A stretch of 64,000 nucleotides of DNA from Sinohyriopsis cumingii (Eukaryota > Mollusca > Bivalvia > Unionida > Unionidae), in assembly GCA_028554795.2 (NCBI GenBank), contig CM068831.1, forward strand, positions 31,856,644 to 31,920,643, in the 5' to 3' direction. Shown here in pieces: positions 15,166 through 52,715 of this stretch (the stretch's first letter is position 1; each line of letters begins with the position of its first letter). Below the pieces are notes generated by a model. That model was not told the DNA's origin. It worked only from the letters and a program-made list of their open reading frames with translations, and did no database searches. A program made the position numbers and the translations under genes.

Positions 15166-15169
15166 AACG

Positions 15170-15615: not shown

Positions 15616-15619
15616 ACAA

Positions 15620-16590: not shown

Positions 16591-16604
16591 CGAATATTAT
16601 TATA

Positions 16605-19600: not shown

Positions 19601-19603
19601 TTG

Positions 19604-20014: not shown

Positions 20015-20068
20015 ATTATAATTTAGACAAATATATATTTAAATTGAAATATAATTATACACATATAA

Positions 20069-23852: not shown

Positions 23853-24012
23853 TTTAAGGGTTTAACGCCATATTTCAGCACACGATAGGCTATATATGGC
23901 GGCCAGTATTAATGGTGGAGGAAGAACCCGGGAAAACCCTGGAAAGAACCACCGAACCACGAGAACCTACTGGCAAACTTTCTCACATACCCACATTGGC
24001 TGATTCCGAGAG
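23853..24012 (-). mobile_element. SINE family 1, 5'-truncated
   Basis: Reverse complement of the body and tail of the SINE at 18775-19023: GGGTTTAACGCCATATTTCA, TATTAATGGTGGAGGAAGAA and CTTTCTCACATACCCACATT. It ends at GATTCCGAGAG, so the tRNA-derived head is absent. Confidence 0.75.
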
Positions 24013-24107
24013 AGTTGGTTGACTTTGATTGTAGTCTTTTAATCTGACCAGGGGTCAGACTGACACAAACATGATGATATGATATTATAATATCATGAGC
24101 GATTTCA

Positions 24108-25391: not shown

Positions 25392-25459
25392 CTTTATTAT
25401 AATTGGTTTCGTCTAACACGAAGACCAATTCCTGATTTCAGACTACCAACTATATCTTT

Positions 25460-25807
25460 TCTGCTTCACGAGCCAACTCTGCTAGATTTTGATTTGTAGT
25501 TTAATTTACTAACATCTGCAGGCATAACTTCAGTGCTGGGTAATTTTACTGGCTGTGGTTTTGTCTTATTGACCGTGCTAGTCTGTCTTTGATTGCTGAG
25601 AACCAACAGCTCCAATACCTTTAAAACGAACAACGTCAATAGCTGTCATTGATAATTGTTTTGCAATCGGTATTACTTTTGGGGCTATCCTTCTAAAAAC
25701 ACCCTGATTAACATCACCGAATCCATCACCGCCTTATAGGTTGGAATTCGTGAATGTTTATCACCCTGACAATGATCGGTCCACGTTGAACATTATGTAT
25801 GATCACC
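25460..25807 (-). pseudogene. Decayed pVI-like small virion protein, copy 3
   Basis: Frames include VIIHNVQRGPIIVRVINIHE, matching the N-terminus of the intact gene at 43806-44273 (MIIHYNHDKPVSVYVVNSRL). Later blocks are shifted, and the initiator ATG is replaced by GTG. Position and strand match the complete element. Confidence 0.65.
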
Positions 25808-25837
25808 TTATTTTAGTCATTGTATATAATTGCATAC

Positions 25838-37904: not shown

Positions 37905-37910
37905 AGCAGA
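37905..37910. repeat. Target-site duplication, left
   Basis: AGCAG(A), matching 52710-52715. The last A may be the first base of the element, so the duplication is 5 or 6 bp. Polintons are known for 6-bp duplications. Confidence 0.75.
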
Positions 37911-38167
37911 GCAGCAGGGGGGCGAATCCGACATTTTGTCCAATCGTTATTTTGCTTAATTAATACTTTCTGCACTCAGCGGATCCGGTGTCGTCAGCGC
38001 CCGGTAAAAAAAATACGACGACGGTCCATCCTACACGACGGTGACGTCATCTGGTTTAATACACTTTCTGCGCGTCGATCCCAGCGTCGTCAGCGTCCGG
38101 TAAACACAGCGACGACCGCGTCGATGTCATCCCCCCCCCCCCGCTGCTAAGAAGTTATTTACAATGA
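37910..38167 (+). repeat. Left terminal inverted repeat
   Basis: Matches the reverse complement of 52441-52709. It contains a G6 run near the outer end and a C12 run near the inner end, each next to AGCAGC or its complement. Inside are two related units of about 65 bp, each with TTTCTGC then CGTCGTCAGCG and CCGGTAAA. The stop codon of the penton-like gene (38159) lies inside the inner end. Confidence 0.95.
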
Positions 38168-39481
38168 TCTTACAAACAGAGTGATTACTAACTCCTCCTC
38201 TTGTAGATCAATTAGGTTATTTGACTGATCGGTAAGTCTGAAATTAATTCTCGTTAAAAACCGATTATGGCATCGCATATAGACCGGATTAATTGGGCTC
38301 TCAACGATTAAGAATCCGGGAGGGGCTGTTGGTGAAAATGAATAAAGGATATACCCCTGTTGAGCTTGATTTGATTGCTTGGTATCTACCTGGTAACTCC
38401 CTTCGATAACATCACACACTAGATTGATTGCTATCACCGATGCGATATTTACGTTGTATGGAGCAATATGCCTACCACCATCTCCGTTATCGTGTTTGAG
38501 GATAGTTGATGGACTGAAAAAATCATTAAGAGACTTTCTTAGTTCTGGCGCGTTGTATCCTGGAAACTTGAAATCGGGTAAATCGGCTTCTGTGATATTA
38601 TACTCGGTTAGGAATTTTTGTTTATTATCATCTCTGCTATCGGATATCATTTTGACGAATCGTTCATTGATATATTCCATGTCTGATATAAGTTGATTTA
38701 ACACCTCAACTTGTTTTTGTTCTTTTGTTTTCCGTAGTTGTTCTAGTTGCAGTCGGTAATTACGATTAATCTCGATAAAAAAACTATCGATATCATTTAA
38801 ATTAACTGCTAATATGACGAGCGATTCAGGAGTTTCCTTATACCGAAAATAACACTGCATGGCATTCCTGTCTTGAAATATAAACCAACTGGGTAATAAC
38901 GTGTTTTTCATAATAGACAAATTATCTCGATAACTGGGATTAATTTCATGATACGATTGCGCATTCGTGTGCAAATCCGCGGGGATTTCATGAGGTGGAT
39001 TCTCAGGCCAACCTAGTATGGTTCTTATTGAACTGTTATAAATATCAACTATATACCCCGGTGTGCTTATTTCAATCGTCGACGATAACGTCGGTTCATG
39101 AACCGTAAGAGCGATTTTTGATTCTTTTCCTGTGATCGATTTTATCCTGCGTTGAAATTCTTTATTGATTTGTTCTACTTGGTATGACCCAGTTGGTATT
39201 GTAACCTCCTTCCAGTCTGGGGTCCCATCGGGTTTATTTGTCCATGCAAAAACCAGCGAGTTATTAGGTTGTTGTCCGTTAAATGCTTCCGCTCGGATAT
39301 TAGGCCAACTGTGATATACTCGCAATTTTGCCAGCGCTATTTCCTTCACTGGAATCGGAGAAGGGAAGTTTACACTGAATTCTGGCTTCGTTGATGTTAT
39401 CGATATCATATTTGTTTGTACCGGAGTGGTGTTCTCCGCGATCCGTTGAAGTAATTGAAACCCTTCGGGGTTCAGCGACAT
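38159..39481 (-). CDS. Penton-like minor capsid protein
   Basis: 440-residue protein, the last gene of the left gene block, with its stop inside the TIR. By position, size and C-terminal pattern it is the minor capsid (penton-like, single jelly-roll) protein of Polintons, expected at capsid vertices. Visible blocks: an N-terminal TNMISITSTKPEFSVNFPSP; SIRTILGWPENPPHE mid-protein; and NLVCDVIEGSYQVD, then GYILYSFSPTAPPGF, SPINPVYMRC and DLQEEELVITLFVR at the end. A decayed homologue lies at 15170-15615 with the same block order. Start ATG 39481 follows the junction motif AATTAAACACTAG…AATAATAATG. Family assignment is by pattern, not search. Confidence 0.75.
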   Translation of the reverse strand: MSLNPEGFQLLQRIAENTTPVQTNMISITSTKPEFSVNFPSPIPVKEIALAKLRVYHSWPNIRAEAFNGQQPNNSLVFAWTNKPDGTPDWKEVTIPTGSYQVEQINKEFQRRIKSITGKESKIALTVHEPTLSSTIEISTPGYIVDIYNSSIRTILGWPENPPHEIPADLHTNAQSYHEINPSYRDNLSIMKNTLLPSWFIFQDRNAMQCYFRYKETPESLVILAVNLNDIDSFFIEINRNYRLQLEQLRKTKEQKQVEVLNQLISDMEYINERFVKMISDSRDDNKQKFLTEYNITEADLPDFKFPGYNAPELRKSLNDFFSPSTILKHDNGDGGRHIAPYNVNIASVIAINLVCDVIEGSYQVDTKQSNQAQQGYILYSFSPTAPPGFLIVESPINPVYMRCHNRFLTRINFRLTDQSNNLIDLQEEELVITLFVRSL

Positions 39482-39512
39482 TATTATTATTTGTCGTTTC
39501 TAGTGTTTAATT

Positions 39513-40053
39513 TCAACACCGAATATTAACAACCTGCTTGTTTTCAGGAGAATGTTTTAAGCCCATTGAAGTGGTTTCAGCGACGTGGTTTCCAGCTTCC
39601 AGTTGAAAATCCTCGATTTTTGACATCGCGGAGTCATACAACTGGACCATCGTGGAGAATTCAACATCGGATATAAACGAATTATCTATCGCCAACGAGA
39701 TCAACCCGGATAATTTCGAGTACGCGTCGGATACTATTTGATGTTTTACTGTATACTCGTTGAGTTTTTTCTGAGAACACGATGATATCTTTCTAGTGAT
39801 TGCGTTGGCGACTCTAGCAATTGTTGTCGCCGCGGAGATAGCGATTGGAACAGCGATCGGGGCCATCATGGTCACCGTGGATAAAATAACACCGGTACCG
39901 GCTACTATACCTGACACCGAGTACACGACCGCGTCGATGGTGGTTATTTTTCGGCGGTATTTTTTTATTTTTACACGGTATTGTTCGGAAAGCGTTTTCA
40001 AATTCGCGGAGAATTCTTTTACGGTATTGAATCGATATTGATGTGGTGGTCAT
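39513..40053 (-). CDS. Small membrane-like virion protein, 5' end frameshifted
   Basis: Open frame of 162 codons from 40001, beginning with TTG, so the true start lies upstream. A well-placed ATG at 40053, directly after the junction motif, is in another frame, and a stop closes the main frame just downstream of it. A one-base difference within the first 20 codons is therefore likely. The protein has a basic N-terminal segment (YRVKIKKYRRKI) and a long hydrophobic Ala/Ile/Val stretch (VVYSVSGIVAGTGVILSTVT… PIAVPIAISAATTIARVA). A C-terminal helical region follows. Function unknown; such hydrophobic proteins are usual in Polinton virion modules. Confidence 0.6.
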
Positions 40054-40078
40054 TTTTATTTTAAAAGAGCTAGTGTTT

Positions 40079-40957
40079 TTAATTACTTAGATCCGCTACA
40101 AATTCCACATACCATGTAATGTTTGCCCTGGTTAAAGTTCTATCAACGGCTTCAATTGTAAACGGTTCATTTGCGTCCTTGTCTATAATTGTTGATATTG
40201 TATTGTTAAACCCGGATGAACTCGACGATAATATATTAAACTGCATCATTGAAACCAGTGTCAATCGATAAATGCCCTTAACAGTTGTGGTGATATTTAT
40301 TATATCCTGTGTAGGAGTCCAGATAAATGATCCATGCCGAATTGTGTATACCGAGTTGATGGTGTTTTCATGAGGGATTTTTATTTTTGTCACCTCCGGT
40401 AGTCTGTCTTTAATCGCTGCAACATCAGTTTTGATTGTTCCTATTTCCTGTATATGCACGTATAACCCCGCTTTGATCGTTTCAACATCAGTTTTGATTT
40501 TTTTTGTTTCCTGTCCATATGTGTATACATTCCCTTTGATCGATTCAACGTTAATTTTGATTGTTCCTATTTCCTGTGTATGCGCGTCTATACCCCTTTT
40601 GTTCGCTGCAACATTAGTTTTGATTGTTTTTATTTCCTGTGTCGCGTCTACACCCCTTTTGTTCGCTTCAACATCAGTTTTGATTATTTCTATTTCCCGT
40701 TTATGCGCGTCTACACTCCTTTTGTTCGCTTCAACATCATTTTTGATTGTTTCTATTTCCTGTCCATACGCAGTGATATCATTTATAGTTATTGTAATTT
40801 CATCCGGTTTGGTATTTTTTTTACCAAAGAATTTATCAATGGTGTTATCAGCCCTGTTAAAATTTTTTCGTAACGTGTAAAATTGGCCCGACAGCGTTGT
40901 AAACTCCGAAATAGTACTTTTTATCCCTACAAGATTCGGTTCGGTTACCGTCGGGGT
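40079..40957 (-). CDS. Fibre-like protein, stalk and head part (after in-frame TGA)
   Basis: The frame is open from the TGA at 40958-40960 to the stop at 40079, about 292 codons, in the same frame as the upstream part. It starts with LVGIKSTISEFTTLSGQF-type helical sequence. Then come about six register-locked coiled-coil repeats of 21 residues (QEIGTIKTDVAAIK, QETKKIKTDVETIK and similar). It ends with a roughly 105-residue, beta-rich, Ser/Thr-rich domain (IKIPHENTINSVYTIRHGSF … NITWYVEFVADLSN). The architecture (trimeric or dimeric stalk plus C-terminal head) resembles viral fibres or spikes. No homology to a named fibre is claimed. The first start codon after the TGA is a GTG at 40459. Confidence 0.55.
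   Translation of the reverse strand, partial: TPTVTEPNLVGIKSTISEFTTLSGQFYTLRKNFNRADNTIDKFFGKKNTKPDEITITINDITAYGQEIETIKNDVEANKRSVDAHKREIEIIKTDVEANKRGVDATQEIKTIKTNVAANKRGIDAHTQEIGTIKINVESIKGNVYTYGQETKKIKTDVETIKAGLYVHIQEIGTIKTDVAAIKDRLPEVTKIKIPHENTINSVYTIRHGSFIWTPTQDIINITTTVKGIYRLTLVSMMQFNILSSSSSGFNNTISTIIDKDANEPFTIEAVDRTLTRANITWYVEFVADLSN
40398..40765 (-). repeat. 63-bp tandem repeats coding coiled-coil stalk
   Basis: The motif TTCCTG (reverse complement of the QE codons) recurs at 40445, 40508, 40571, 40634, 40694 (as TTCCCG) and 40757. Spacing is 63, 63, 63, 60 and 63 bp. 63 bp is 21 residues, or three heptads, which keeps the coiled-coil register. The 149-codon plus frame at 40431-40880 is the antisense shadow. 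Confidence 0.9.
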
Positions 40958-41398
40958 TCAAAAAAAACTAGCAGTAGTGAGTTGTATATCGGTGACAGAC
41001 TTTTGTATCCCCTCGAACTGATTTGCTTGCGCGTTAAATCTATCATATAAATTTTTTAACGAATTCGACATGGTTATATAATTGTCGCCAAGTGTACTTA
41101 TTTTTCCATTTATCGTCAAGATGGATTCACCTGATTTAAGTCGTCCGTCATCGGTATACAACACGATAGTGTTCTCGGCGGCATCACGCTGTCGTATTAA
41201 AACGTCATTCAGCGACACATTACTGGATTTCAATTTACCCTGGCGGTCTTGAAATACAACTATTTCGCCCGGGTCAACACTGGTTAGATTTAACGTATCA
41301 GCGATTTCATCCTCGATTAGTTTTTTTATGTCATCGGTGGCGAGCGTTTCCGTGGATTCTTTCAGCGCCGAAACCGGTCGTCCCCAGATATCAATCAT
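40958..41398 (-). CDS. Fibre-like protein, N-terminal part
   Basis: 146 residues from ATG 41398 (MIDIWGRPVSALKEST), preceded by the junction motif TTAATTAAAAACTG…AATAATAATG. Short beta-type repeats follow (GEIVVFQDRQGKLKSS, NTIVLYTDDGRLKSGES), then a helical segment ending DIQLTTASFF and a TGA. The sequence after the TGA continues in the same frame with related helical sequence, so both parts probably form one 438-residue protein interrupted by a single stop. The N-terminus would anchor to the capsid; this is inference. Confidence 0.6.
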   Translation of the reverse strand: MIDIWGRPVSALKESTETLATDDIKKLIEDEIADTLNLTSVDPGEIVVFQDRQGKLKSSNVSLNDVLIRQRDAAENTIVLYTDDGRLKSGESILTINGKISTLGDNYITMSNSLKNLYDRFNAQANQFEGIQKSVTDIQLTTASFF

Positions 41399-41422
41399 TA
41401 TTATTGTAAAAAAATACAGTTT

Positions 41423-41890
41423 TTAATTAACCCGCCGGGCCTCTACGATCCCACTAGTGTATTCGTTTACAACCACATGAGGTGGTTTCCGCGATGATGA
41501 AATCGCCACGAGTACGTTCAATACCTCACGGCCGCATATCGGTGGGTCACTTAATTGTTGTGTTGGCAGCGTGGAATAAAAAACCGGGGCTGAACACGCC
41601 CGGATATACCGCATGAACTCGTTTGGCGGGACTAACCCGTATGAATCAAAATAGACGATCGCACGCGGATCAATTACGTATGCAACCCAATGAGTCCTCG
41701 CTCCGGAGGATTTATCGAGGTTAATTATACCGGTTTCAATATTCCTTGGTTTTGTCGGTAATTGATCCCTCATAAAAACACCTCTGAAGTTTTTTATCGC
41801 TAACGCGTTTGCGGCATCTATTAAATCAAAATTAGACATAGGAGTCATTAAACGGTTCCCGGTAGTCTTAGACCCTTCCCCGAGTACCAT
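41423..41890 (-). CDS. Adenain-like cysteine protease
   Basis: 155 codons. The conserved core begins MSNFDLIDAANALAIKNFRG, then VFMRDQLPTKPR, a feature of Polinton proteases. The catalytic set is visible: His67 (ARTHWVAYV), Asp82 (YFDSYGL) and Cys119 (PPICGREVLN), with Gln112 nearby. It would cleave capsid precursor proteins during maturation. Adenoviral protease is the distant relative. The true start is probably Met15 or Met18 (41848 or 41839), because the first 14 codons lie in a duplicated 24-bp stretch. No copy of this gene was recognised among the decayed remnants. Confidence 0.85.
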   Translation of the reverse strand: MVLGEGSKTTGNRLMTPMSNFDLIDAANALAIKNFRGVFMRDQLPTKPRNIETGIINLDKSSGARTHWVAYVIDPRAIVYFDSYGLVPPNEFMRYIRACSAPVFYSTLPTQQLSDPPICGREVLNVLVAISSSRKPPHVVVNEYTSGIVEARRVN

Positions 41891-41922
41891 GAATACGGGG
41901 TTCCCGGTAGTCTTAGACCCTT
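41854..41922. repeat. 24-bp exact direct repeat at the protease 5' end
   Basis: An identical 24-bp sequence (starting GGTTCCCGGTAGTCTTAGAC) occurs at 41854-41877 and 41899-41922, 45 bp apart. It replaces the usual intergenic junction motif between this gene and the one at 41928. Confidence 0.9.
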
Positions 41923-41927
41923 TCCGG

Positions 41928-42320
41928 CTACGGGTCGTTTTTTTTATAGCCTTTCCCGGTTGCCTTCTTCAATGCCATTCCCGCCGCGGTACCAACGGCT
42001 CCTAACGCCGCCGCCTTCGCCACTGCTGGGGCCGCCGCGGCAATCAACGCTGGAATCGCAGCTAACAGCGGAAATATCCCACCGGTCCTTTCCATGTTTT
42101 TAATCGCTGCCGCCGAAAAATCTATTTGAACACCCTTTTTATTCTTCATCGCATCATTGAAATGTTTTATTTGACGCGCCGTCAACGATATCTTATGATT
42201 ACCACCTGCCATCTGTGACGGCTTCAGCGTTATTGTGGTTCCACATTGTTTAGCCGACTTTGATCGTAATTTCTTGACTTGACCATCGGTCAACTCTACA
42301 CCGACAACACTATACGACAT
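41928..42320 (-). CDS. Small conserved Polinton virion protein
   Basis: 130 residues. The N-terminal half is MSYSVVGVELTDGQVKKL, SAKQCGTTITLKPSQMAGGN and KISLTARQIKHFNDAMKNKK. This is a repeated 'K…(20)…S.SQ..GG' pattern that I associate with a small protein near the capsid gene in Polintons and adintoviruses. The C-terminal half is a hydrophobic Ala-rich helix (IFPLLAAIPALIAAAAPAVA) and a basic tail (KKATGKGYKKNDP). QMAGGN fits the adenain consensus (M/I/L)XGG|X. Probably a membrane-active or core virion protein; role inferred. The ATG at 42320 follows the junction motif ending ACAATAAAA. Confidence 0.65.
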   Translation of the reverse strand: MSYSVVGVELTDGQVKKLRSKSAKQCGTTITLKPSQMAGGNHKISLTARQIKHFNDAMKNKKGVQIDFSAAAIKNMERTGGIFPLLAAIPALIAAAAPAVAKAAALGAVGTAAGMALKKATGKGYKKNDP

Positions 42321-42349
42321 TTTTATTGTAAACGCGTTTATGTTTTCAA

Positions 42350-43774
42350 TTACATGTTTTCCACTGGTGCATCAACGATTCTCATTCGTCCACCAACACC
42401 TTCCAACAGCATTGATTTATCGCTGAGAATGACAGCAACCGCTCTATAATTAACACCACCCGGGGCTATACGAGCTCGGAAGTGTATATCAACGACGGAC
42501 TGTCTCGTTAAATCAAGATGTTCCAACGAAAAGTAATAAATCGGATACAGGATTTTAAAATCAAGTTGTGATATTTGCAAACCGGTGTCGACGTTTTGAT
42601 CACGCGCCATAAATGACAGCAATCGATGGTACACACGTGCGACATGGTTGTTGTCGTAATTAAGCTGTATATCCTCTGATGGTTCCTGTTGTCCGTTTAT
42701 TCTCAGCGAAACCTCCCTGACTCCTAATCGATCAAATATCATATGACTGTGTTCTTGATTATTCAATCGATCCCTATTCTGTAACGCAACAAATATATTA
42801 CGCGGGGCTGAAACGCCTTGTTTTGATGCTAGGTGCCATGTAAATGTATCGGCTACATTATCCTCTTTAGCATCAGTTGTTACCGCTAGCCAACTTAACA
42901 ACGATTTTCCCCCCTGTTCCATAAATGATAACAATCGTGCTTCCGTGGTAACTGATGGAGTTAACACCGGCATCCACAATGCTATTTTAGTTAAAACGAC
43001 TTTACCGGCAGCGACACCAGCAGCACGCCATATTGCATTGTTATCATCGCCCCTTCGCGATAGCGCAATTGTATGCTTAGCCCCATAGATAACTTTTCTG
43101 ACATTTCTACAAAATCCGAATATGTGATGGAGTGGAATCGCGCATGAAAACTGTCGGCGTTGTCCTTGCAACATCCCTAATCGTGTTGCAAACCCTAGAT
43201 TAAAATTATCGTTAGTACTTTTTATAATAGTAAATTCATCGCTTGGTCTTGCCCTGCGGTCTGGGTTGGCTGCTTCAACCTGGTTAACTGCGGTATCTCC
43301 CCCCGTCAGCACGTTAATGTACTGAATATGATCAGCGTTATTAGTGGTGTCCTTTGCGAACATCATAGATGGGCCCGCCGATCTTGTATAATCATCTGAG
43401 TATCTTGCTAGCCCGATTATCGTTGTTGCAACATCAACATCGTTTTCTATTGATTCAATTTCTCGTCCGTCAATAAGATATCTGGCACTCTCAAATAACG
43501 CCATGATACCGTTGTTGACAAAACCAACTCGAACACGGCCGTCATTTGCGTATGGTGCATTATCGGCAACATTTGTTACAAGTTCTCCCTCAATTTCGAT
43601 AAACGCTTCACACGGCAAAAAGTATTTACTGGTATCTTGGACTTGAAGTTCAATTCGCGATCGTAGGTTGGCTTGTGGTGGTTGATAGGAATAAAATTGA
43701 TAATCACGGACAGAATCATCCCTGCGCACTGGGGCGTCCATATCAAACGCGGGATCAGCGGTTTGCGCAAACAT
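42350..43774 (-). CDS. Major capsid protein (double jelly-roll)
   Basis: About 474 residues from ATG 43774 (MFAQTADPAFDMDAPVRRDD). This start is chosen over ATG 43789 because the copy at 24108-25391 also begins MF after a TATAATAAAG-type leader. Order: DYQFYSYQPPQANLRSRIEL, then the first barrel (SKYFLPCEAFIEIEGELV), an NDNFNLGFATRLGML loop and IPLHHIFGFCRNVRKVIYGA. Then come the second barrel (GVREVSLRINGQQEPSEDIQ) and a C-terminus with RIAPGGVNYRAVAVILSDKS. Length and pattern fit Polinton MCPs that build pseudo-hexameric capsomers. Assigned by pattern and position next to the protease and penton-like genes. Confidence 0.85.
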   Translation of the reverse strand: MFAQTADPAFDMDAPVRRDDSVRDYQFYSYQPPQANLRSRIELQVQDTSKYFLPCEAFIEIEGELVTNVADNAPYANDGRVRVGFVNNGIMALFESARYLIDGREIESIENDVDVATTIIGLARYSDDYTRSAGPSMMFAKDTTNNADHIQYINVLTGGDTAVNQVEAANPDRRARPSDEFTIIKSTNDNFNLGFATRLGMLQGQRRQFSCAIPLHHIFGFCRNVRKVIYGAKHTIALSRRGDDNNAIWRAAGVAAGKVVLTKIALWMPVLTPSVTTEARLLSFMEQGGKSLLSWLAVTTDAKEDNVADTFTWHLASKQGVSAPRNIFVALQNRDRLNNQEHSHMIFDRLGVREVSLRINGQQEPSEDIQLNYDNNHVARVYHRLLSFMARDQNVDTGLQISQLDFKILYPIYYFSLEHLDLTRQSVVDIHFRARIAPGGVNYRAVAVILSDKSMLLEGVGGRMRIVDAPVENM

Positions 43775-43805
43775 TTTATTATTTATCATGTTGATGTTTA
43801 ATTCA

Positions 43806-44273
43806 TCAACGTCGTTTTCGTCGTAAGTTCTTTAAGCCACTTCCCGCTATCGCGTTCATGAGCGCCTTGGTTGTTGCATCGGTGGATGGCTTTGCCAGAG
43901 CCGCCAACGACTCTAGTTTTTCTTCCACGGCGTTATTTATTACTTTACTGACATTTGCAGGCATCACTGTCGTTGATGGCATCACCGGTGGTTTCTGTTT
44001 TCTTTTTCTCACCAACGACATTAGTTTATCTCGTGCTGCAGAAAACGCCCTTCCGGCAACATCTCCAATAGCACTAATTCCCTTATCACGAATAACATCA
44101 ATGGCCTTCATTCCTAATTGTTTGGCTAACGGCGCCACTTTTGGAGCCATTCTTGTAAATAACCCCGCAATGGTGCTACCGAGACCGTCTCCGTACCACT
44201 CGCGGTATACGGGCAATCGCGAGTTTACCACGTAGACGCTGACTGGTTTATCATGGTTGTAGTGTATAATCAT
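43806..44273 (-). CDS. pVI-like small basic virion protein
   Basis: 155 residues starting MIIHYNHDKPVSVYVVNSRL, with EWYGDGLGSTIAGLFTRMAP (Gly-rich amphipathic segment) and AARDKLMSLVRKRKQKPP (basic). The end is NAIAGSGLKNLRRKRR. Gly-rich amphipathic helix plus basic tail is typical of adenovirus pVI/pX-type cement or core proteins, which Polintons encode next to the MCP. IAGS|G matches the other adenain consensus (M/I/L)XGX|G. The ATG follows the palindromic junction AAAACACTGGTGTTTT. A decayed copy is at 25460-25807. Confidence 0.65.
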   Translation of the reverse strand: MIIHYNHDKPVSVYVVNSRLPVYREWYGDGLGSTIAGLFTRMAPKVAPLAKQLGMKAIDVIRDKGISAIGDVAGRAFSAARDKLMSLVRKRKQKPPVMPSTTVMPANVSKVINNAVEEKLESLAALAKPSTDATTKALMNAIAGSGLKNLRRKRR

Positions 44274-44330
44274 CTTTATTATAAAAAAACACCAGTGTTT
44301 TCCAATTAGTGATTGATCACCAGTGATTGA

Positions 44331-45305
44331 TCAATCGCTGTAATGACCGTGGTCCACGAGTTCGTCTATGAGCGTTCGATATACATTAATGTCCATGATA
44401 CCACCGGCAAATAACCGCCTGCAAATATCAGCGGCCTCATTGATTATTTCCGGAGAGTTATTTCCGGCTCGTTTTCCTCCGATTAGTACTTCCAGCCGTG
44501 ATATATCACTGAGAACACTACCAGGACAAGTAACGTCTTTACCAACAGAGTATCCTTTTCCGTGCTTTGGTCCTTCATTTTTTACTTTATTGTGGAATAT
44601 TATATAATTATTATCACGCAATGGTAATACATTTTTATGTTTACTTGCCAAATACACTATTCTTGTCCAGTCCTTTAACGACCTTATATTTTTCTCGTAG
44701 CTGCTATTGATATGCTCATCTCGTGTGCCCTTAGCAAAATTTGTAACAGTAAAATTGACTAATTCTTCGTAGCCGAGATTTCTAATTGTGTCTATTGTGC
44801 TCTTTTTAAGTACATTACGGGGTATATTCTCCTTTATCTCTATTTCTTCCGGTATTTCTTCCGGTATTTCTTCTTCTGGTTCTCTTGCGGTGGCGCCTAG
44901 TTCTTCTTCGTCGGCGATTGTAACATAAGGTTCTTGTGGATCGGGGGGCGGTGCAATAGGTCGTGGTTGGCGCTGTTGTAGTTCTTTTAATACTCGTTCT
45001 TTTCGTTGTTGTTGCCGTGAGGTGGTTACTATATCCACGGGAAGTGTTTCTAAAGACTTTTTTGTTTGTTCGGTCTGAGCCGCTATCTTTTCAAGCGCAC
45101 CGATGACGGGCACAGTTGCCGCCGTAACATCTTTGGTCGCTTTAGTTACCGGAGCAAAGAGTTGTTCACTTCCAACAGCAAAATCAGTTTGTAGTTGTTG
45201 CCGCGTTTGAAGTTGTTTTCGGACCCTGTCTCGTAACGGTATGAACTTTTTAAGCGCTACTAGCCGCTCTCTGGCTAGCCGAGTAGTAAGTGATTCGCCT
45301 ACCAT
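44331..45305 (-). CDS. Conserved Polinton structural protein, function unknown
   Basis: 324 residues. N-terminal helical region (TTRLARERLVALKKFIPLRD), central Pro/Glu-rich linker (PRPIAPPPDPQEPY; EEEIPEEIPEEIEIKENIP) and a folded C-terminal domain. That domain has ELVNFTVTNFAKGTR, KHGKGYSVGKDVTCPGSVLS and SRLEVLIGGKRAGNNSPEII. Then comes ADICRRLFAGGIMD. The C-terminal domain is shared with a fragment of the other lineage (14930-15165), so it is an ancient Polinton component, probably virion-associated. Start ATG 45305 follows TATAATAA. Confidence 0.6.
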   Translation of the reverse strand: MVGESLTTRLARERLVALKKFIPLRDRVRKQLQTRQQLQTDFAVGSEQLFAPVTKATKDVTAATVPVIGALEKIAAQTEQTKKSLETLPVDIVTTSRQQQRKERVLKELQQRQPRPIAPPPDPQEPYVTIADEEELGATAREPEEEIPEEIPEEIEIKENIPRNVLKKSTIDTIRNLGYEELVNFTVTNFAKGTRDEHINSSYEKNIRSLKDWTRIVYLASKHKNVLPLRDNNYIIFHNKVKNEGPKHGKGYSVGKDVTCPGSVLSDISRLEVLIGGKRAGNNSPEIINEAADICRRLFAGGIMDINVYRTLIDELVDHGHYSD

Positions 45306-45360
45306 TTATTATAAATTGCTCCGTAGTTTCTAATTTCCCTGTGGCAGCCGTTACCACGAC

Positions 45361-45376
45361 CTATGGGGGGGGGGGG
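45361..45376. repeat. G-run
   Basis: CTATG followed by a run of 12 G at 45365-45376, between the structural-protein gene and a small ORF. Possibly variable in length between copies. Confidence 0.8.
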
Positions 45377-45485
45377 AAATGTATACAACGTCCGTACGCT
45401 ACATGCCAGGCTCCACGGAGTTTTCGTCTATAATCCTTCTAATGTTTTTAATTTTATTAGAGATTTCTCGACGTCGTTCAAAAGC

Positions 45486-45776
45486 CTATCCGAGTTTTTT
45501 TCGTACTGTCTCAACGGCAGTAAATAGTCCAATAAATGCATTTACGTCATTGCCATACAGGTTTTCATTGATCGTATATTGTAATAGCTTTATAAAAGAA
45601 TACTCGCGTGGCAAGGTATATCGACCTTTCTTTGATTGCTCATTAATAATTTCATAATCGGACAATATTTTTTGGTTATCAAGCTTATCAGATAATACAA
45701 TTCCTTGATTTTTTAATTTTAAAATCTCGGTTAATATATTATTGATGTCTTCGATATTCATATTCTTATAAAACAT
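45486..45776 (-). CDS. Small ORF of unknown function
   Basis: 96 residues from ATG 45776: MFYKNMNIEDINNILTEILK, then NQKILSDYEIINEQSKKGRY and FIGLFTAVETVRKKLG. Helical, soluble. After the TAG at 45486 the same frame continues open for 28 more codons (AFERRREISNKIKNIRRIID…), which looks like a coil extension. The stop may therefore be recent or readable. No family recognised, and no copy found among the decayed remnants. Confidence 0.45.
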   Translation of the reverse strand: MFYKNMNIEDINNILTEILKLKNQGIVLSDKLDNQKILSDYEIINEQSKKGRYTLPREYSFIKLLQYTINENLYGNDVNAFIGLFTAVETVRKKLG

Positions 45777-45877
45777 CTTATTTCTAAATAAAAAAAAAAT
45801 TATTTTACAAAATGAACCCTGCGTATCAATCCCGAGGTGTGTTATCTAGTATGAAGTATTTCGTCATGGCGACTTCG

Positions 45878-46387
45878 TCACGGTGACAAGGATTTATTTA
45901 TATACGAAAATCGAATTCTGTGACCCGTCTTTTTTGAGATCGCTGTTTTAGTTATATTCTCTGCAACAAATCGAACTGATTTACTACAAATATCGAAGTA
46001 CCTACCAGCCGCATTCATATAGTGAAATATTTTTTCTTCGTGCGTTATTGTATCAAACGATTTGACACCCCTTGCTTTTTTTGCGTGTTTACCAGTTCCG
46101 CCTTTTTTACTATTTTCACTCTGAGAGATAGCTTGTAGGTTTATAACAGAATTATTTAGACAATCAGAATCAATGTGATCAATAACAAGACCGTCCTCGA
46201 TTGGTCCGTTAAACGCTTCATATACCACCCTGTGAACAAGATACTTCTTCTTTCCGGCACTAAACATCAAATACCCCTGATTATTTACGGTACCAACCGG
46301 CTTCTTCAGTCTACAATTTCTAACAACGCCGTCGCAAGATGCCTCGTAATTAACGAGCACAGGATGCGGCTGAAATTCTTGGTTCAT
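45878..46387 (-). CDS. Free-standing HNH endonuclease
   Basis: 169 residues. VHRVVYEAFNGPIEDGLVID followed by HIDSDCLNNSVINLQAISQS is the HNH core seen in phage and algal-virus homing endonucleases: 'H.xYxxFxG', then 'VDHIDxxxxNN', then 'NL'. Here the aspartate-histidine pair DH and the N-N are present. The N-terminal part (CDGVVRNCRLKKPVG.. GYLMFSAG) fits a NUMOD4-like DNA-contact module. It would nick or cut DNA, and may be a selfish passenger or aid in element mobility. A second, separate HNH is fused to the polymerase-helicase protein. The ATG is preceded by TATTATTATACAA. Confidence 0.75.
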   Translation of the reverse strand: MNQEFQPHPVLVNYEASCDGVVRNCRLKKPVGTVNNQGYLMFSAGKKKYLVHRVVYEAFNGPIEDGLVIDHIDSDCLNNSVINLQAISQSENSKKGGTGKHAKKARGVKSFDTITHEEKIFHYMNAAGRYFDICSKSVRFVAENITKTAISKKTGHRIRFSYINKSLSP

Positions 46388-46400
46388 TTGTATAATAATA

Positions 46401-46736
46401 CTACTTGTCTAATTCATTATTTGGTTTAATTATAAACCTTTCAATGTAGTCCTGAGGAGTTTTAATGATTTTGTCCTTGACTGAGTCAGCGGTGGGGTCA
46501 ATGACGGCGTTTTTTATTCGCTTGTCGTAATAACGTTTTAACTCTCTGTATCGCTTTCCGCCACAATTGATACATAATTGTGATTTTCCTCTTACACCAA
46601 CGTGGCAAACCAAGCACGGTAGGGGGCCAAGAGAACCATTACGAACGCTTTGTAAATGATACCCGCAGAATTCACCTCTACATGATTTATTGCACGGGGT
46701 TGTCGACCCAATCATCAACCATTTGCAGTGATTCAT
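46401..46736 (-). CDS. Small Cys-rich (zinc-binding) protein
   Basis: 111 residues: CKWLMIGSTTPCNKSCRGEF, CGYHLQSV and LPCLVCHVGVRGKSQLCINC. Cys/His spacing suggests two zinc-binding sites (C..C…C..H and C..C…C..C), followed by a helical basic tail (RYRELKRYYDKRIKNAVID). Probably nucleic-acid binding or a regulator. The same protein is recognisable in the copy at 20069-20345. It is divergent from the replication ORF at 46776, sharing a 39-bp gap that should hold both promoters. Confidence 0.6.
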   Translation of the reverse strand: MNHCKWLMIGSTTPCNKSCRGEFCGYHLQSVRNGSLGPLPCLVCHVGVRGKSQLCINCGGKRYRELKRYYDKRIKNAVIDPTADSVKDKIIKTPQDYIERFIIKPNNELDK

Positions 46737-46775
46737 TATACTATATTATTTCATTTAAATACTTGTTTTAATTAT
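46737..46775. promoter_or_regulatory. Divergent promoter gap
   Basis: A 39-bp, almost pure AT gap between the divergent zinc-protein and replication ORFs (contains TATACTATATTATTTCATTT and TTTTAATTAT). The equivalent gap in the old copy (about 20015-20068) is also very AT-rich with TATATATTT. Two TATA-like tracts could serve opposite strands; inferred. Confidence 0.45.
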
Positions 46776-47591
46776 ATGGAGGAGTTCGAGAGATTAGCAG
46801 CAATTAAGCCCTGGAAAAATATTAAGTTTAATCTCGATAGAGTCCTCAAGGACGCACCAAAAGCGTTAGTAAACGATAGAACCCTGTTGAATAAAATACG
46901 CGACTGTATCAATGAATTCAAGCGTGATGGTGCATCTCATAGTTGGTCAACATTTCGAATTGATGGTGTTGTTGATGCTACCATGAACGACAACCGCGCA
47001 GCAACGATAATATCACAACTTGACGGTAAAAAGTATTTCTTCAGAGTAAAATTCATTGTCCGGGTGGAATCAGGTAATTGGATCATACGTGATAAATTTG
47101 AACCGGTTCTCAGCGACAAGAAAACAGTTATTGTTAGCCGCGACTCCAAGCCAGGGCTGTTAACCGGAGTTGACAGACCATACTATGAACGAGCGTATCC
47201 TGAAACAGCAGTTGTCTATGGAATATACCCGTTAAATAAGAAACCTGATATCGGAAAACTAGCGCCGATGAAACAGTCAACGGGGATAAATTGTGTAGCA
47301 GAACGAGTAATAGAGCATTTTGCAAATGCGTGTCGAGGAAATAAACTGACCGATTTACGACGTAGTAAAATAAACCAATGGGAGGAGACAGTGCGCGAGC
47401 GAGGAGCAACCATCAGCGACATAGCGAGATTAGAAACGTCGCTGAGATTTCCAATAACCGTTACAACAATAACCGGTGAAGTATTATATGAATCAAAGTA
47501 TAAATCAAATGGAGCCCCAATCAAAATTATTGATCATAACGAACACGCGTGGACGCCCGCGGTCACAATATTTCCAGGGATAGAACAGTAA
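46776..47591 (+). CDS. N-terminal part of the replication protein
   Basis: 272 residues from ATG 46776 (MEEFERLAAIKPWKNIKFNL; start supported by the copy at 20014). Features: HSWSTFRIDGVVDATMNDNR, a conserved block LAPMKQSTGINCVAERVIEH with a Cys, RRSKINQWEETVRERGATIS, and near the end IKIIDHNEHAW with a His. It ends in the −1 frame relative to the following 898-codon ORF and overlaps it by 43 bp. The junction region lies in the overlap near 47575. I recall fused versions of these two parts in large polymerase-helicase proteins of some eukaryotes, so both ORFs probably act as one protein, either by frameshifting or because one base is wrong here. Confidence 0.7.
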   Translation: MEEFERLAAIKPWKNIKFNLDRVLKDAPKALVNDRTLLNKIRDCINEFKRDGASHSWSTFRIDGVVDATMNDNRAATIISQLDGKKYFFRVKFIVRVESGNWIIRDKFEPVLSDKKTVIVSRDSKPGLLTGVDRPYYERAYPETAVVYGIYPLNKKPDIGKLAPMKQSTGINCVAERVIEHFANACRGNKLTDLRRSKINQWEETVRERGATISDIARLETSLRFPITVTTITGEVLYESKYKSNGAPIKIIDHNEHAWTPAVTIFPGIEQ

Positions 47592-50245
47592 AGTATATCC
47601 CGGGGGAATTCCTGGGAGAGGATGGTTTTCTCGCAGAGAGGAAACTATTTGATGCTATTGCTTGTTTGTGTAAAAACGACCCTGTGTCAGTGTGGTTACT
47701 TCGCAGCGCTGAAAACGACATGGATACCTTTGATCAGTTTGTAAGACCAAACGGTGAATTATATCGCACTGAAGCGTTTCACAACAAGATGAAAAAAACC
47801 GCCATGGAATTTGAAGAGCATGATGAACAACTGCTAACAAATTGTTTTACGATTCCATCGGTTGCGGCTCATGTTGCAGCAAGGAAAAATGCGTGGAGAC
47901 CAACGCGCAAGGAATTTCTACCAGATGTACAATCCAGTTGTTTGGAATACTATCACGGTGGACTATGGAACACTGAATACAACCGCGACGCTATGATTTC
48001 CGTTGATATGGTTGCCTGTTATCCAGCGAGTTTTCTCGGGTATGGATCCGCCGCTGAGTACTTTAAACGATTTGGACACCCCAGACATGAAATGACTCGT
48101 GTTGCTATTAATGGACCACTGCCTGATTTTGATTTAACCGGATTCGCTCGCATAGTATCATTTGAATTCGCGGCAGGACTTCATCGCTGTTGTTATATTT
48201 GGATCGGTAGACACATGGCTGAAAAGAAGTGGCTGCCAATAGCGCTGCTACGGTATATGATTGATTGTAGCATGCTTGTATCGTTGATTGTCAGCGACGC
48301 AATAATATCATACCGGGCGCAGACTGAAGTCTGGTTACCAGAACCAGAGCGTCTAGATAGCATAATTGACGAATCCAGAAAACACATTGATGCCGACGAG
48401 GAATATATCATCGAATGGTCCAAAAAGATATTCAACCAACGAAACCGCGAGGCAAAAGATCTCGGTAGAAGAATAATTGGTAAGTTCACACAAGGTGGAA
48501 AAAACTGCGACTACAAACGATATTGCTCACGGCTGATTATAGATGACGCAGAATATGATTTCGTAATCAAGGACGCAGTGGCAAAAAATAGATACGTGAA
48601 CTGCAAAACAGCTTTCTTGTCCAATGGAACAAAGTTGGGTACAGTTGTTACCTACAGCGATGGAGACAGCCCGGCATATCCACATTTGAGGGCGTCTATG
48701 CTGGGTTACGCCGCTATCAATTTATTCTCGATGATAAATAGATTTCCCGACACCGCGGTTAGAGTCGCGATTGATTCATTTTACACAGACGTAAAGTACA
48801 AGGGAAACATAGCCGAGTTTACTAGTCCGGACGAGAGTTGGGGTATATGGAGAATTAAAAATGAAATACGACGCGATTATTCCCCGTCAGCAGATGTCAC
48901 CGTTGAAAATAATTACTTACGCGGTGATAATCTATCAGAATGGTCTAATGCACCACCGTGTTCTGATCCAATTTGTAGATATAAAACAGTTTATTTGAGC
49001 GGCTGTGGCGGGTCAGGAAAGACGACTCAGGCAATTGAATTATTTCGAACGCGGGCAAGTATAATCGAGCTTACACCGACCCATAGACTAGCGCGAGAGA
49101 TAAAACAACGAAATGTTGACGCCGTTACTTATCACAGCTTTTTTCGATACAGCGGCGGTGAGTGGACTCCTGATCGAATGGGGGAAAAATTTATTCCTGA
49201 GGTTATCATCTGGGATGAGATATGTACTGTTTCGTTAGATACTTTACAAATGTTTCTTGAGTGGTTGCTGCGCGCGAATACAGCGGTAATCATGTGCGGA
49301 GATCATGGCCAACCACCACCATTTGTCGGCGAGGGTCCACATGATTGGTTAAAGGGTTTTGTGGACTATTATGAAGAAACCGATACTGATTACCGAGCAC
49401 TTGATGAACAACTGCGCGAGGTTAAAAAATTAATCAAATTACAGCCGGATAGAGTTCAATGTGAAATAATCCGCGAGGTGATTCCGGAAACGCCGTTAAA
49501 TGAATTCTGGGAAACATGGAGACCAAACGATTTGATTGTAGCGAGTAGAAAGATAGTCAGAGACACACTTCAGCGGAAGTTGTTTACGTTGCATAAGGAA
49601 AAGTTTCCAACGCGTCCAGTGCCGTTATGTTATAGACCCGCGGACACACGGCGGCAGAACATTGAAGTTGAAATCCCGGGCCCGACAGCGTCAGGGACAA
49701 AAAAACAAATTCTCGTGCTGAATGATATTGTGCTCGTTGATATCAGCGTCGTCGAGGACGCGCTACGTGCTGAAAAATCCCCGTGGACGCTAGGATACGC
49801 AACGACAATACATTCCTCGCAGGGATTAACCATCACGGACACAATTGTTTGGATGGTTGATAATCGCATCGAATGGTCAAATCTAGTCTATCTTGCAGTG
49901 TCCAGAGTACGGAGAATGAATCAGCTTCGAAGAATTGTTATTGACGAAGCCAGTGACAACGATGACATTATTGATGCTAGCGTCATTGATAGAAAACTCT
50001 CGGGTTACCGCCAACAGGATAAAAAAAAACAGCGGCGTTTTGATATTGATGCCGAATTAATAATTGCGTTACGACAACAACAGAATAATCACTGCGCGAG
50101 TTGCAATTGTGTAATGCGCTGGCGTTGTTCGGATAAAGACGCTCGCCAATTTACCGTGGACAGGATCGATAACAGTCTCGGTCATGTCAAAAACAATGTG
50201 AGGTTGACCTGTCTTGAGTGCAATAGACGCAACGGCGCTAGTTAA
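47549..50245 (+). CDS. PolB-like polymerase / SF1 helicase / HNH fusion
   Basis: 898 codons. Polymerase palm-like motifs: motif A SVDMVACYPASFLG (Asp153, Tyr158-Pro159); a GKFTQGG segment; motif C-like VRVAIDSFYTD (Asp409). Helicase: Walker A SGCGGSGKTTQ (485-493); TPTHRLARE; Walker B VIIWDE (Asp556-Glu557); MCGDHGQPPP (from about 583, Asp585); motif V TIHSSQGLTI (His755); motif VI LVYLAVSRV. This set is that of SF1, Pif1/Dda-like helicases. The C-terminal HNH-type nuclease has CASC (849-852), DRID (871) and LTCLEC near the end. It would copy the element DNA and replaces the pPolB of classical Polintons. Its stop overlaps the convergent integrase stop by a few bases. A decayed copy is at 17701-19600. 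Confidence 0.8.
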   Translation: MDARGHNISRDRTVKYIPGEFLGEDGFLAERKLFDAIACLCKNDPVSVWLLRSAENDMDTFDQFVRPNGELYRTEAFHNKMKKTAMEFEEHDEQLLTNCFTIPSVAAHVAARKNAWRPTRKEFLPDVQSSCLEYYHGGLWNTEYNRDAMISVDMVACYPASFLGYGSAAEYFKRFGHPRHEMTRVAINGPLPDFDLTGFARIVSFEFAAGLHRCCYIWIGRHMAEKKWLPIALLRYMIDCSMLVSLIVSDAIISYRAQTEVWLPEPERLDSIIDESRKHIDADEEYIIEWSKKIFNQRNREAKDLGRRIIGKFTQGGKNCDYKRYCSRLIIDDAEYDFVIKDAVAKNRYVNCKTAFLSNGTKLGTVVTYSDGDSPAYPHLRASMLGYAAINLFSMINRFPDTAVRVAIDSFYTDVKYKGNIAEFTSPDESWGIWRIKNEIRRDYSPSADVTVENNYLRGDNLSEWSNAPPCSDPICRYKTVYLSGCGGSGKTTQAIELFRTRASIIELTPTHRLAREIKQRNVDAVTYHSFFRYSGGEWTPDRMGEKFIPEVIIWDEICTVSLDTLQMFLEWLLRANTAVIMCGDHGQPPPFVGEGPHDWLKGFVDYYEETDTDYRALDEQLREVKKLIKLQPDRVQCEIIREVIPETPLNEFWETWRPNDLIVASRKIVRDTLQRKLFTLHKEKFPTRPVPLCYRPADTRRQNIEVEIPGPTASGTKKQILVLNDIVLVDISVVEDALRAEKSPWTLGYATTIHSSQGLTITDTIVWMVDNRIEWSNLVYLAVSRVRRMNQLRRIVIDEASDNDDIIDASVIDRKLSGYRQQDKKKQRRFDIDAELIIALRQQQNNHCASCNCVMRWRCSDKDARQFTVDRIDNSLGHVKNNVRLTCLECNRRNGAS

Positions 50246-51182
50246 GACCACGCGGGGGCAATTGAGTATCGTCAGGTATCACTTGTAGTTGCTCGCGTGT
50301 AAACCCCCGCTGTGGGGCAGTTGAATCCAGTCTATAGATCGGTGGTCTACCAGTTGATCGTGTTATCGTTGATATGTTATGTGTGGTAACACTCCAAATA
50401 GGATCAGTAGCTCTTTTTTTACCGCCTTCAAGTTCTCCTGGTTCATACAGATATCTAACAGTGACATCGCCGAGAATCGGCTTGGAAACGCTATCTATTT
50501 TTGATCTTCCGGGTATATACTTTTTCTTAATCGCGTCGCTGGGCTTCATGTTGATTGCTCGGGTAATCTCGTTATTTAACGCTGCAATTACGCCTGGCAA
50601 CCTTTTGACCCATTCACGAGATCGTTTTTCTTGGATGAATTCCTTCGCGTATTGATACCCAAATAACCGTTCAGCAAGAGTCCGATTGAATCGTTCAACA
50701 ATTGCCTGATCACGATGTAGCGCAGTATGACCTCGTCGTATCGCGACGCTATGATGTTTCAGCGTTGATAAAACAGCGCCGCGAAATTCATTGCCAGGAT
50801 CAACTTGTAATATATTTGGCCAGCGCAGAGGACCCCTTCGGTAAATCCGCTCAAACGCATCGGCTACTTCAGTTGCTGACTTTGTTTTTAACGGCTCCGC
50901 TTGTTTGTATCGACTCGCAACATCAACTACGGTTAGCGCGTATTTGTAACCGTTGTCATGCGGCAGAAATAGTATATCAGCCTGATGAACTTCATTAGGT
51001 ACGCTGACATCAAAGCGCGAAAAGTTGATTTGTTTAGGCGGTGGTAGATAAATTTGCCATATAGCCTGTTTGGATAACCAATTAGCCGCAACGGCTTTTG
51101 TTACCTTTGCAGCGCTTGCGAGTTTACCAATTGCGGCCTTCCCCTTCCAGTATCCTCTCGGAGAATAATAGATGGATTCCAT
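50238..51182 (-). CDS. Polinton integrase (rve, DDE)
   Basis: 314 residues from ATG 51182 (MESIYYSPRGYWKGKAAIGK). This start follows the junction motif with the 14-bp perfect palindrome AAACGCTAGCGTTT; the upstream in-frame ATG at 51239 lies inside the PLA2 gene. The catalytic triad is Asp69 (VHQADILFLPHD), Asp128 (ILQVDPGNEF) and Glu163 (QAIVERFN), with 34 residues between the last two, as in retroviral integrases. No HHCC zinc finger is apparent. The C-terminus (RYLYEPGELEGGKK … IYRLDSTAPQRGFTREQLQV) looks like an SH3-like DNA-binding tail. It inserts the element and creates the target duplication. Decayed copies at 13400-14250 and 16605-17700. Confidence 0.93.
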   Translation of the reverse strand: MESIYYSPRGYWKGKAAIGKLASAAKVTKAVAANWLSKQAIWQIYLPPPKQINFSRFDVSVPNEVHQADILFLPHDNGYKYALTVVDVASRYKQAEPLKTKSATEVADAFERIYRRGPLRWPNILQVDPGNEFRGAVLSTLKHHSVAIRRGHTALHRDQAIVERFNRTLAERLFGYQYAKEFIQEKRSREWVKRLPGVIAALNNEITRAINMKPSDAIKKKYIPGRSKIDSVSKPILGDVTVRYLYEPGELEGGKKRATDPIWSVTTHNISTITRSTGRPPIYRLDSTAPQRGFTREQLQVIPDDTQLPPRGLN

Positions 51183-51207
51183 GTTGTTATTATAAACGCT
51201 AGCGTTT
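51183..51207 (-). promoter_or_regulatory. Gene-junction motif upstream of integrase
   Basis: The short gap between the PLA2 stop and the integrase ATG carries the clearest form of the motif: TAATTGAAAACGCTAGCGTT then TATAATAAC before ATG. AAACGCTAGCGTTT is a perfect palindrome, so RNA could form a hairpin. Similar motifs occur before 39481, 40053, 41398, 42320, 43774, 44273 and 45305. Likely a combined 3'-end and promoter signal. Confidence 0.65.
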
Positions 51208-51748
51208 TCAATTACCAGCGCGAGAAGCTCCGCTTCCAATCATTAATTTACCTTTCATAGCCGATTTTACCAACCATGAAGCCAATTTTTCTTTGAATGA
51301 TTTATCAGGAATAGCATTTAACGCGTGAATTAATTTTACATCCGCGATATGACGCTGTTGCAGATCGCTACTTTTGTAGTAAGCAACATCATGAGCATGA
51401 CATGCCTTATCGATAGCGTTTATTGGATACTCACCGGGTTTGGGCTGATTTTGATCATCGAGTCTGATATCTAATCGTGTTCCGGGGCCACAGTAGCTAT
51501 ATCCTGGGAGGTGCTTTTCTCCTGGATACTTTGCCCACGGTGTTCCGGGGAGTTTTGATAACTTGGCTGCAATATCACCTCCTCGCTTTTTTTAAAGCAT
51601 CCCCGGGTCTAGCAGAAATAAATCTAAATTTCTTTGTACCGCATTGTACACACTTACCAGTAAGTGCCGATCTGTTATTTCTTGTTGTAACGGTTGTCAT
51701 ATCATTTGTGCCAGTACGCACTCTACACTTCACACAATATAGATCCAT
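51208..51748 (-). CDS. PLA2-like protein with N-terminal zinc ribbon, one frameshift
   Basis: From ATG 51748 the first frame encodes a zinc ribbon: MDLYCVKCRVRTGTND … KCVQCGTKKF (two CxxC pairs, DUF5679-like). It runs into a stop just after an A7 run (51587-51593, T on the plus strand). The next frame continues without a gap: GDIAAKLSKLPGTPWAKYP, then SYCGPGTRLDIRL, DKACHAHDVAYYKSSDLQQR and a basic C-terminus. YCGPGT is the PLA2 calcium loop and HDVAY holds the catalytic His-Asp pair. Parvoviral VP1 uses a related domain to cross membranes. Encoded protein about 180 residues. The break is a one-base difference in a homopolymer. It is not listed as a long ORF because of this break. Confidence 0.8.
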
Positions 51749-51765
51749 AATTTATGTATAGAGAT
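51749..51765. promoter_or_regulatory. Short divergent gap between PLA2-like gene and packaging ATPase
   Basis: Only 5 bp separate the PLA2-like ATG (51748) from the first ATPase ATG (51754), or 17 bp if the ATPase starts at 51766 (MNIIDF). Sequence here is AT-rich (AATTTATGTATAGAG). Any promoters must overlap the coding ends. Confidence 0.4.
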
Positions 51766-52427
51766 ATGAATATAATTGATTTTTCGGCGACTAAAACAAG
51801 AGAACCAGTTAAGCATGTTGCAGCGTTACCAAACTCGATCCGGATGATTATCATCGGACCATCTGGATCCGGCAAGACGCAATTGTTACTCAATTTAATA
51901 ATGAGATGGATGAAGTGGGATAAGTTGTATTTAATCGCCCCTAGCGTGGATGATCAACGATGCTACGAGGTGTTGAAAGATTTTAACGAGAATGCATCAG
52001 CGATCGCTGAAAAAAATGTTATTGAGTTTATTACAGATATCAATGATGCACCAGGTATTGATGATATTGATGGCGACGTTAACAATCTAGTCGTGTACGA
52101 TGATGTTATGTTAGACAATCAAAAAACCCAGCTAGGATATTTTCCAGAGGCAGGCATAAAAACACCGACGTGATATATGTCACTCAACGATACACTCAGA
52201 TTCCAAAAGTAATCAGAGACAACTGTAATATTCTTGCTGTATTCAACGGCGTTGATACACACACGCTACGAAATATTTGGCAGACATGGTGCGGCGGTGA
52301 CATGGACTTTAATGGTTTTCGAAACTTTTTTAGTCATGCTCAGTCAACCCCACATGGATTTGTAACGATAAATTTACATGATCCTCGGACACGATATCGT
52401 ATCGGACTTGACCAAATATTCGGTTAG
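51754..52427 (+). CDS. Packaging ATPase (FtsK/HerA, A32-like), one frameshift
   Basis: The first frame (from 51754 or, more likely, ATG 51766) holds Walker A IIIGPSGSGKTQLLL (Gly35-Thr42 counted from 51754) and Walker B NNLVVYDDVML. It runs off-frame near 52138-52150. The second frame, open from that point to 52427, contains DVIYVTQRYTQIPKVIRDNC, the sensor/'RDNCN' region of Polinton ATPases, and ends RTRYRIGLDQIFG. The frames differ by one base near a T4 run. It pumps element DNA into capsids in viruses with this family. It is the rightmost gene, ending 14 bp before the right TIR. Confidence 0.85.
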
Positions 52428-52440
52428 TTGTAACTAATTT

Positions 52441-52709
52441 TCATTGTAAATAACTTCTTAGCAGCGGGGGGGGGGGGGGGGAAATGACATCGACGCGGTC
52501 GTCGCTGTGTTTACCGGACGCTGACGACGCTGGGATCGACGCGCAGAAAGTGTATTAAACCAGATGACGTCACCGTCGTGTAGGATGGACCGTCGTCGTT
52601 TTTTTTTACCGGGCGCTGACGACACCGGATCCGCTGAGTGCAGAAAGTATTAATTAAGCAAAATAACGATTGGACAAAATGTCGGATTCGCCCCCCCCCC
52701 CCTGCTGCT
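52441..52709 (-). repeat. Right terminal inverted repeat
   Basis: Reverse complement of 37910-38167, differing in the lengths of G/C and A runs and one base beside the A run. Includes the G16-type run at 52466-52481 and the C12 run at 52691-52702. Confidence 0.95.
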
Positions 52710-52715
52710 AGCAGA
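52710..52715. repeat. Target-site duplication, right
   Basis: AGCAG(A), matching 37905-37910. Confidence 0.75.

Follow-up and report, generated by a model that had tools for sequence, protein, structure and literature searches.

A stretch of 64,000 nucleotides from the genome of the unionid mussel Sinohyriopsis cumingii (assembly GCA_028554795.2, contig CM068831.1, positions 31,856,644 to 31,920,643; here called the window) carries a Polinton-like element at positions 37910-52709, bounded by two inverted arms of ca. 258 bp. The element is probably a capsid-coding endogenous virus, with a gene set similar to that of Tlr1, that replicates by means of its own polymerase-helicase. Since the host is a mussel, this would place a Tlr1-like architecture in an animal genome. 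The polymerase-helicase type of replicase has already been published; the literature searched yielded no animal example of this replicase combined with an RVE integrase and capsid genes, and no polymerase-helicase Polinton in a mollusc; the available part of a paper on bivalve transposable elements mentions Mavericks only in general (PMC10294476).

Among the features that characterize Polintons (Polintoviricetes), the element has a double jelly roll (DJR) major capsid protein (MCP; 42350-43789, minus strand; PF21738, E 1.5e-17; 24 homologues), a packaging ATPase (51754-52427, plus strand; PF04665, Pox_A32 type, E 1.3e-5), an RVE-type integrase (INT; 50238-51239, minus strand; PF00665, E 5.4e-9), terminal inverted repeats (TIRs) and, less clearly, a cysteine protease. 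The candidate for the latter, Ulp1/adenain-like (41423-41890, minus strand), had no Pfam match and a weak one to S273R of African swine fever virus (E 0.0012). The ATPase frame is broken in the window copy, and its two pieces share one frame in all ten sister copies described below, one of them with an internal stop. A classical protein-primed polymerase gene (pPolB) is missing: a PF03175 scan that covered 18 different frames of the element, but not the 162-aa frame or the smaller open reading frames, gave no match. The initial annotation had listed a full virion set with integrase and TIRs, a target duplication and no pPolB. All of this holds except for the weak protease and for the penton-like protein, which could not be established. 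The candidate minor capsid or penton protein (440 aa; 38159-39481, minus strand) belongs to no Pfam family and its structure model (pLDDT 60) was too poor for a fold search. It has 19 homologues, several of them in Sinanodonta and one in Potamilus; matches in Sinanodonta woodiana and Potamilus streckersoni were recorded both for this protein (P0117, 86% identity over 39% of the query) and for the MCP (P0095, 69% identity over 62% of the MCP), and they point to a unionid host, Sinanodonta being a member of Unionidae. The MCP profile gave no meaningful match against PDB sequences.

The left TIR (37910-38167, plus strand) starts with AGCAGC and the right one (52441-52709, minus strand) ends with GCTGCT. 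The two arms are complementary in blocks of 97 nt (100%), 136 nt (98%) and 37 nt (100%), and the flanking sequence contains a 5-bp target site duplication, AGCAG, at 37905-37909 and 52710-52714. We scanned the whole host genome (2.9 Gb in 1138 contigs) for related copies; only the best candidate places were scored, so that all the counts given here are lower bounds and biased toward good copies. The left TIR was matched at at least 40 scored places, which include 11 facing pairs, counting that of the window; ten of the pairs enclose 14.5-15.1 kb and the other 18.2 kb. In all 11 insertions read by eye (the window copy and ten sister copies), the target duplication was 5 bp, and the element ends were AGCAGC...GCTGCT. 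This sets them apart from vertebrate Mavericks, for which 6-bp duplications and (AGT)2 or (AG)3 ends have been described (PMC8097293). Within each sister copy, the TIR arms are 88.6-99.2% identical, indicating insertions of a range of ages.

The polymerase-helicase is encoded on the plus strand in two overlapping parts. The first (46770-47591) comprises a predicted alpha/beta domain, which is the weaker part of the structure model, and, by alignment, a vOTU-like NC...HxxHAW stretch; the second (47549-50245) comprises a PolB palm, an SF1B helicase (AAA_19, E 9.8e-12) and an HNH/endonuclease-VII-like C terminus (PHROG 1035, E 7.6e-10). What had been annotated as a replication protein of 272 + 898 residues has the predicted palm, helicase and HNH; however, the two frames are a single gene that has a frame break in the window copy. 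In two relatives, P0001 (1168 aa) and P0003 (1176 aa), one uninterrupted frame spans the junction. The N-terminal frame was open in most of the sister loci (24 of the 29 fetched); among the other five, L017 has the short upstream open frame of the window copy. The phi29 polymerase matches the structure model over residues 270-716, in an alignment that begins at residue 52-54 of the phi29 chain. Pfam scans of the protein found no exonuclease family.

With an SF1 helicase preceded by a palm that has motifs A and C, the protein shows the arrangement of the pPolB-S1H proteins, described as fusions of an N-terminal (terminal protein) domain, vOTU, palm and SF1 helicase, some with a C-terminal HNH or GIY-YIG domain (PMC11071308). 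The same source reports them from Polinton-like viruses (PLVs), Tlr1 and transpovirons, and assigns their palm to the protein-primed variety. Therefore, the suggestion that such a replicase was undescribed in capsid-coding elements is superseded. A different mode of end replication need not be assumed, nor did we find evidence for one, protein priming being the published reading. HelPol, in turn, is a polymerase reported as remotely similar to cellular PolB proteins (PMC11071296). Our tree of the polymerase-helicase is one of 43 relatives only and includes no Tlr1, PLV or transpoviron protein. One relative (P0059) comes from a metagenome bin labeled “Candidatus Thiodiazotropha,” a clam symbiont, and could be host DNA in the bin. 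Two other sets of hits were discarded as relatives of the whole protein: bacterial records in GTDB (12 loci, query A1) matched 39-91 query residues in the helicase and the tail, and five records of a phage collection searched by tblastn matched only residues 477-595.

Selection was assessed with 30 loci, including the window copy, of which L036 and L039 were excluded for their longer match and 28 were kept. They are 96.7-99.0% identical at the nucleotide level (median 97.8%). The pooled ratio of nonsynonymous to synonymous polymorphism (pN/pS) was 0.190, with 0.148 for changes common to at least two copies and 0.442 for singletons. The polymerase-helicase gene is under purifying selection. This pattern fits replication through a functional protein, with copies drifting once they are inserted, although all of these ratios may lean low, as the loci are the best-scoring copies. 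In the N-terminal part, for which only the 22 of 29 sister loci with gap-free, open frames were used, pN/pS was 0.335 over the first 160 codons and 0.167 in the vOTU-like stretch, whose Cys and His were kept in all 22. Asp153, Asp409 and the tested Cys/His positions of the HNH are unchanged in 28/28 loci, and the Walker A Lys in 27/28.

Several observations weigh against an active element that primes and copies its own DNA. The first Asp of the DTD in motif C (position 407, supported by the alignment) is replaced by Ala in 27 loci and by Thr in one, a change that earlier authors have taken as inactivation. The vOTU assignment is a putative one made from Cys/His residues and their position rather than from a fold match. 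A terminal-protein fold was not demonstrated, and no PDB row listed starts before residue 268, although this is the absence of a row for the first ca. 267 residues and not evidence of a new fold. The viral contigs of IMG/VR, scanned with the polymerase-helicase, the MCP and the integrase, yielded no confirmed relative. Finally, a stop falls inside the polymerase-helicase match in 9 of the 51 scored copies, and among the sister copies the MCP match is split in three (L055, L057 and L073) and the INT match in two (L058 and L066), which suggests frame breaks.

The motif C replacement is also an argument for the most probable of the alternatives, namely, a palm without catalytic activity in a protein that serves as a helicase or initiator, with synthesis left to host polymerases or, in trans, to classical pPolB elements. 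A source for the latter exists, given that at least 75 scored places with a PF03175 polymerase coexist in the genome, with frames up to 1363 codons and a DTDS motif in 11 of the 12 loci read (all but L043). We nevertheless consider a dead palm unlikely. Motif A and the second Asp of motif C are invariant, and the palm is constrained nearly as strongly as the helicase (pN/pS of 0.183 versus 0.175). Besides, the polymerases of mavirus, pipolins, mitochondrial plasmids and certain archaea are reported to be active without the same Asp, and pPolB-S1H proteins are predicted to be so despite its loss (PMC11071308).

A second alternative is that the family is the dead remnant of a transposon, without any virus-like life. 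The window copy itself, with broken frames in two core genes, the stops and split matches mentioned above and TIR arms that have diverged to 88.6% in one copy would all agree with it. However, it seems very improbable for the family as a whole. At least 51 scored places carry the polymerase-helicase at 97-100% identity, 42 of them with no stop within the match and 36 with a frame that in addition runs for 1175 codons or more without a stop; the TIR arms are more than 92% identical in 7 of the 10 sister copies, and the changes shared among copies bear the mark of purifying selection.

The ten sister copies, chosen from the 29 fetched loci as having no stop in the match, all have the MCP upstream of the polymerase-helicase, with INT, the ATPase and a TIR downstream and the left TIR also present, and thus, the gene is shared by other copies. 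A classical Polinton into which an unrelated polymerase-helicase gene was inserted can hence be rejected almost with certainty from these neighborhoods and from four MCP places with no scored polymerase-helicase nearby. In three of the four, the gene was detected where it was expected (in one case with a frame change), even if the fourth (L090) showed no match in the 1 kb probed and, among the best-scoring places listed, an MCP lies within 9 kb of at least 16 of the 51 polymerase-helicase places; the TIR pairs are of similar length, and a degraded copy in the window has the same neighbors. The scored places of the classical family lie elsewhere: a radius of 20 kb around its 75 pPolB places took in 0 of the 51 polymerase-helicase and 0 of the 89 MCP scored places. 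Among the scored places, a pPolB inside sister copies, which could have overturned the annotation, was therefore not found. This separation indicates that the element is something other than a damaged copy from that pPolB family. An ATPase was present at 4 of the 12 pPolB loci, only ca. 30% identical to that of the polymerase-helicase element, and no clear match to the proteins of the element was obtained with two pieces of 3 kb from the vicinity of one pPolB copy.

Among the closest known systems is Tlr1 of Tetrahymena thermophila, for which an RVE integrase, an ATPase and capsid proteins have been listed (PMC4642659) and in which pPolB-S1H likewise replaces pPolB (PMC11071308). Tlr1 differs in its ciliate host and in the GIY-YIG domain described at the C terminus (PMC12721341), where the mussel protein has an HNH; compared with the published description of Tlr1, the mussel element adds PLA2-like and DUF5679 domains. 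PLVs and transpovirons with pPolB-S1H share the domain order from the N-terminal domain through vOTU, palm and SF1 helicase to an optional HNH or GIY-YIG, but PLVs are described as mostly devoid of an RVE integrase and transpovirons as lacking a structural module (PMC11071308), while the mussel element has both. Animal Polintons/Mavericks have in common with it the RVE integrase, capsid protein, Ulp1-type protease, packaging ATPase and TIRs (PMC11071308, PMC8097293), but they use pPolB instead of a polymerase-helicase. In OmPLV of Oxyrrhis marina, PolB and an SF1 helicase are also fused in one PLV protein; there, however, the helicase is N-terminal, the exonuclease is retained and an RVE integrase was reported as not detected (PMC12721341).

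By analogy, the N-terminal domain of the ca. 1170-residue protein would prime synthesis at the TIR ends and the vOTU-like domain might then release the priming part. Strand-displacement synthesis by the palm would copy the linear genome, the helicase standing in for an exonuclease domain that has presumably been lost. Insertion of the linear copy by the integrase would be staggered by 5 bp, and, judging from gene content, the ATPase would package the DNA into DJR capsids. More tentatively, and with slightly less than even confidence, we propose that these elements form a distinct lineage of animal endogenous viruses that combines a Polinton-type set of capsid, protease, PLA2-like and integrase genes with a Tlr1-type polymerase-helicase and a 5-bp stagger, has been recently active, trades capsid modules and lives beside an independent pPolB family. 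In the published accounts, pPolB-S1H is known from protist elements, metagenomic PLVs and satellites of giant viruses; the mussel family is multicopy and largely open. Two families in one nucleus allow a side-by-side comparison of two Polinton-like replication modules, and the many copies permit tests of how selection acts on the palm, the helicase and the vOTU-like domain.

The capsid genes vary far more among copies L055-L074 than the integrase or the ATPase. In three of the ten sister copies (L059, L067 and L071), the MCP is 73-74% identical to that of the window copy versus 98-99% for INT, which suggests that the capsid module has been exchanged or that the capsid changes faster.

The remaining genes are arranged around this core. 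In the left part, all are transcribed leftward: the 440-aa protein is followed by a 162-aa protein (39513-40001), a 292-codon frame with repeats of ca. 63 nt and weak coiled-coil Pfam matches (40079-40957), which by its sequence is possibly a fiber or cement protein, a 146-aa protein (40958-41398; Pfam-scanned), the protease candidate and a 130-aa protein (41928-42320) that adjoins the MCP in 8 of the 10 sister pieces, the other 2 stopping within the MCP. Beyond the MCP come proteins of 155 aa (43806-44273), 324 aa (44331-45305; Pfam-scanned) and 96 aa (45486-45776), a separate HNH_3 endonuclease (45878-46387; PF13392, E 1.5e-15) and a cysteine-rich protein of 111 aa with weak Pfam matches (46401-46736). 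In the right part, the polymerase-helicase runs rightward, the integrase leftward and the ATPase rightward. Upstream of the integrase, also on the minus strand, lie a phospholipase A2-like (PLA2-like) domain (51208-51591; PF08398, E 5e-14) and a DUF5679 zinc ribbon (51575-51748; PF18930, E 1.1e-12). The two overlap but are read in different frames, both in the window copy and in 10/10 sister copies, a conservation that makes frameshifting, splicing or separate translation likelier than decay.

Degraded relatives of the element are found elsewhere in the window. At 16605-20785, tblastn detected a second copy with INT (plus strand), polymerase-helicase (minus), cysteine-rich (plus; 61% identical) and 96-aa (plus) genes, whose relative order matches that of the element; the last two adjoin the polymerase-helicase remains. 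The surrounding region (11576-22932), where inverted arms of ca. 950 bp (86% identical) enclose degraded integrase, capsid and polymerase-helicase pieces, probably represents a related element that is old or nested. At 13257-14115 there is a second integrase fragment, more distant, with 27-34% identity to the integrase of the element. A suspected pPolB-like fragment at 12629-12895 was discarded, having no Pfam polymerase match and only a weak one to WHD_ROQ1 (E 0.01), and the pPolB frames of the 12 host loci had no match anywhere in the window. Finally, at 23999-26828 there are degraded versions of the 130-aa, MCP, 155-aa and 324-aa genes, in pieces 44-69% identical and in the order of the element.

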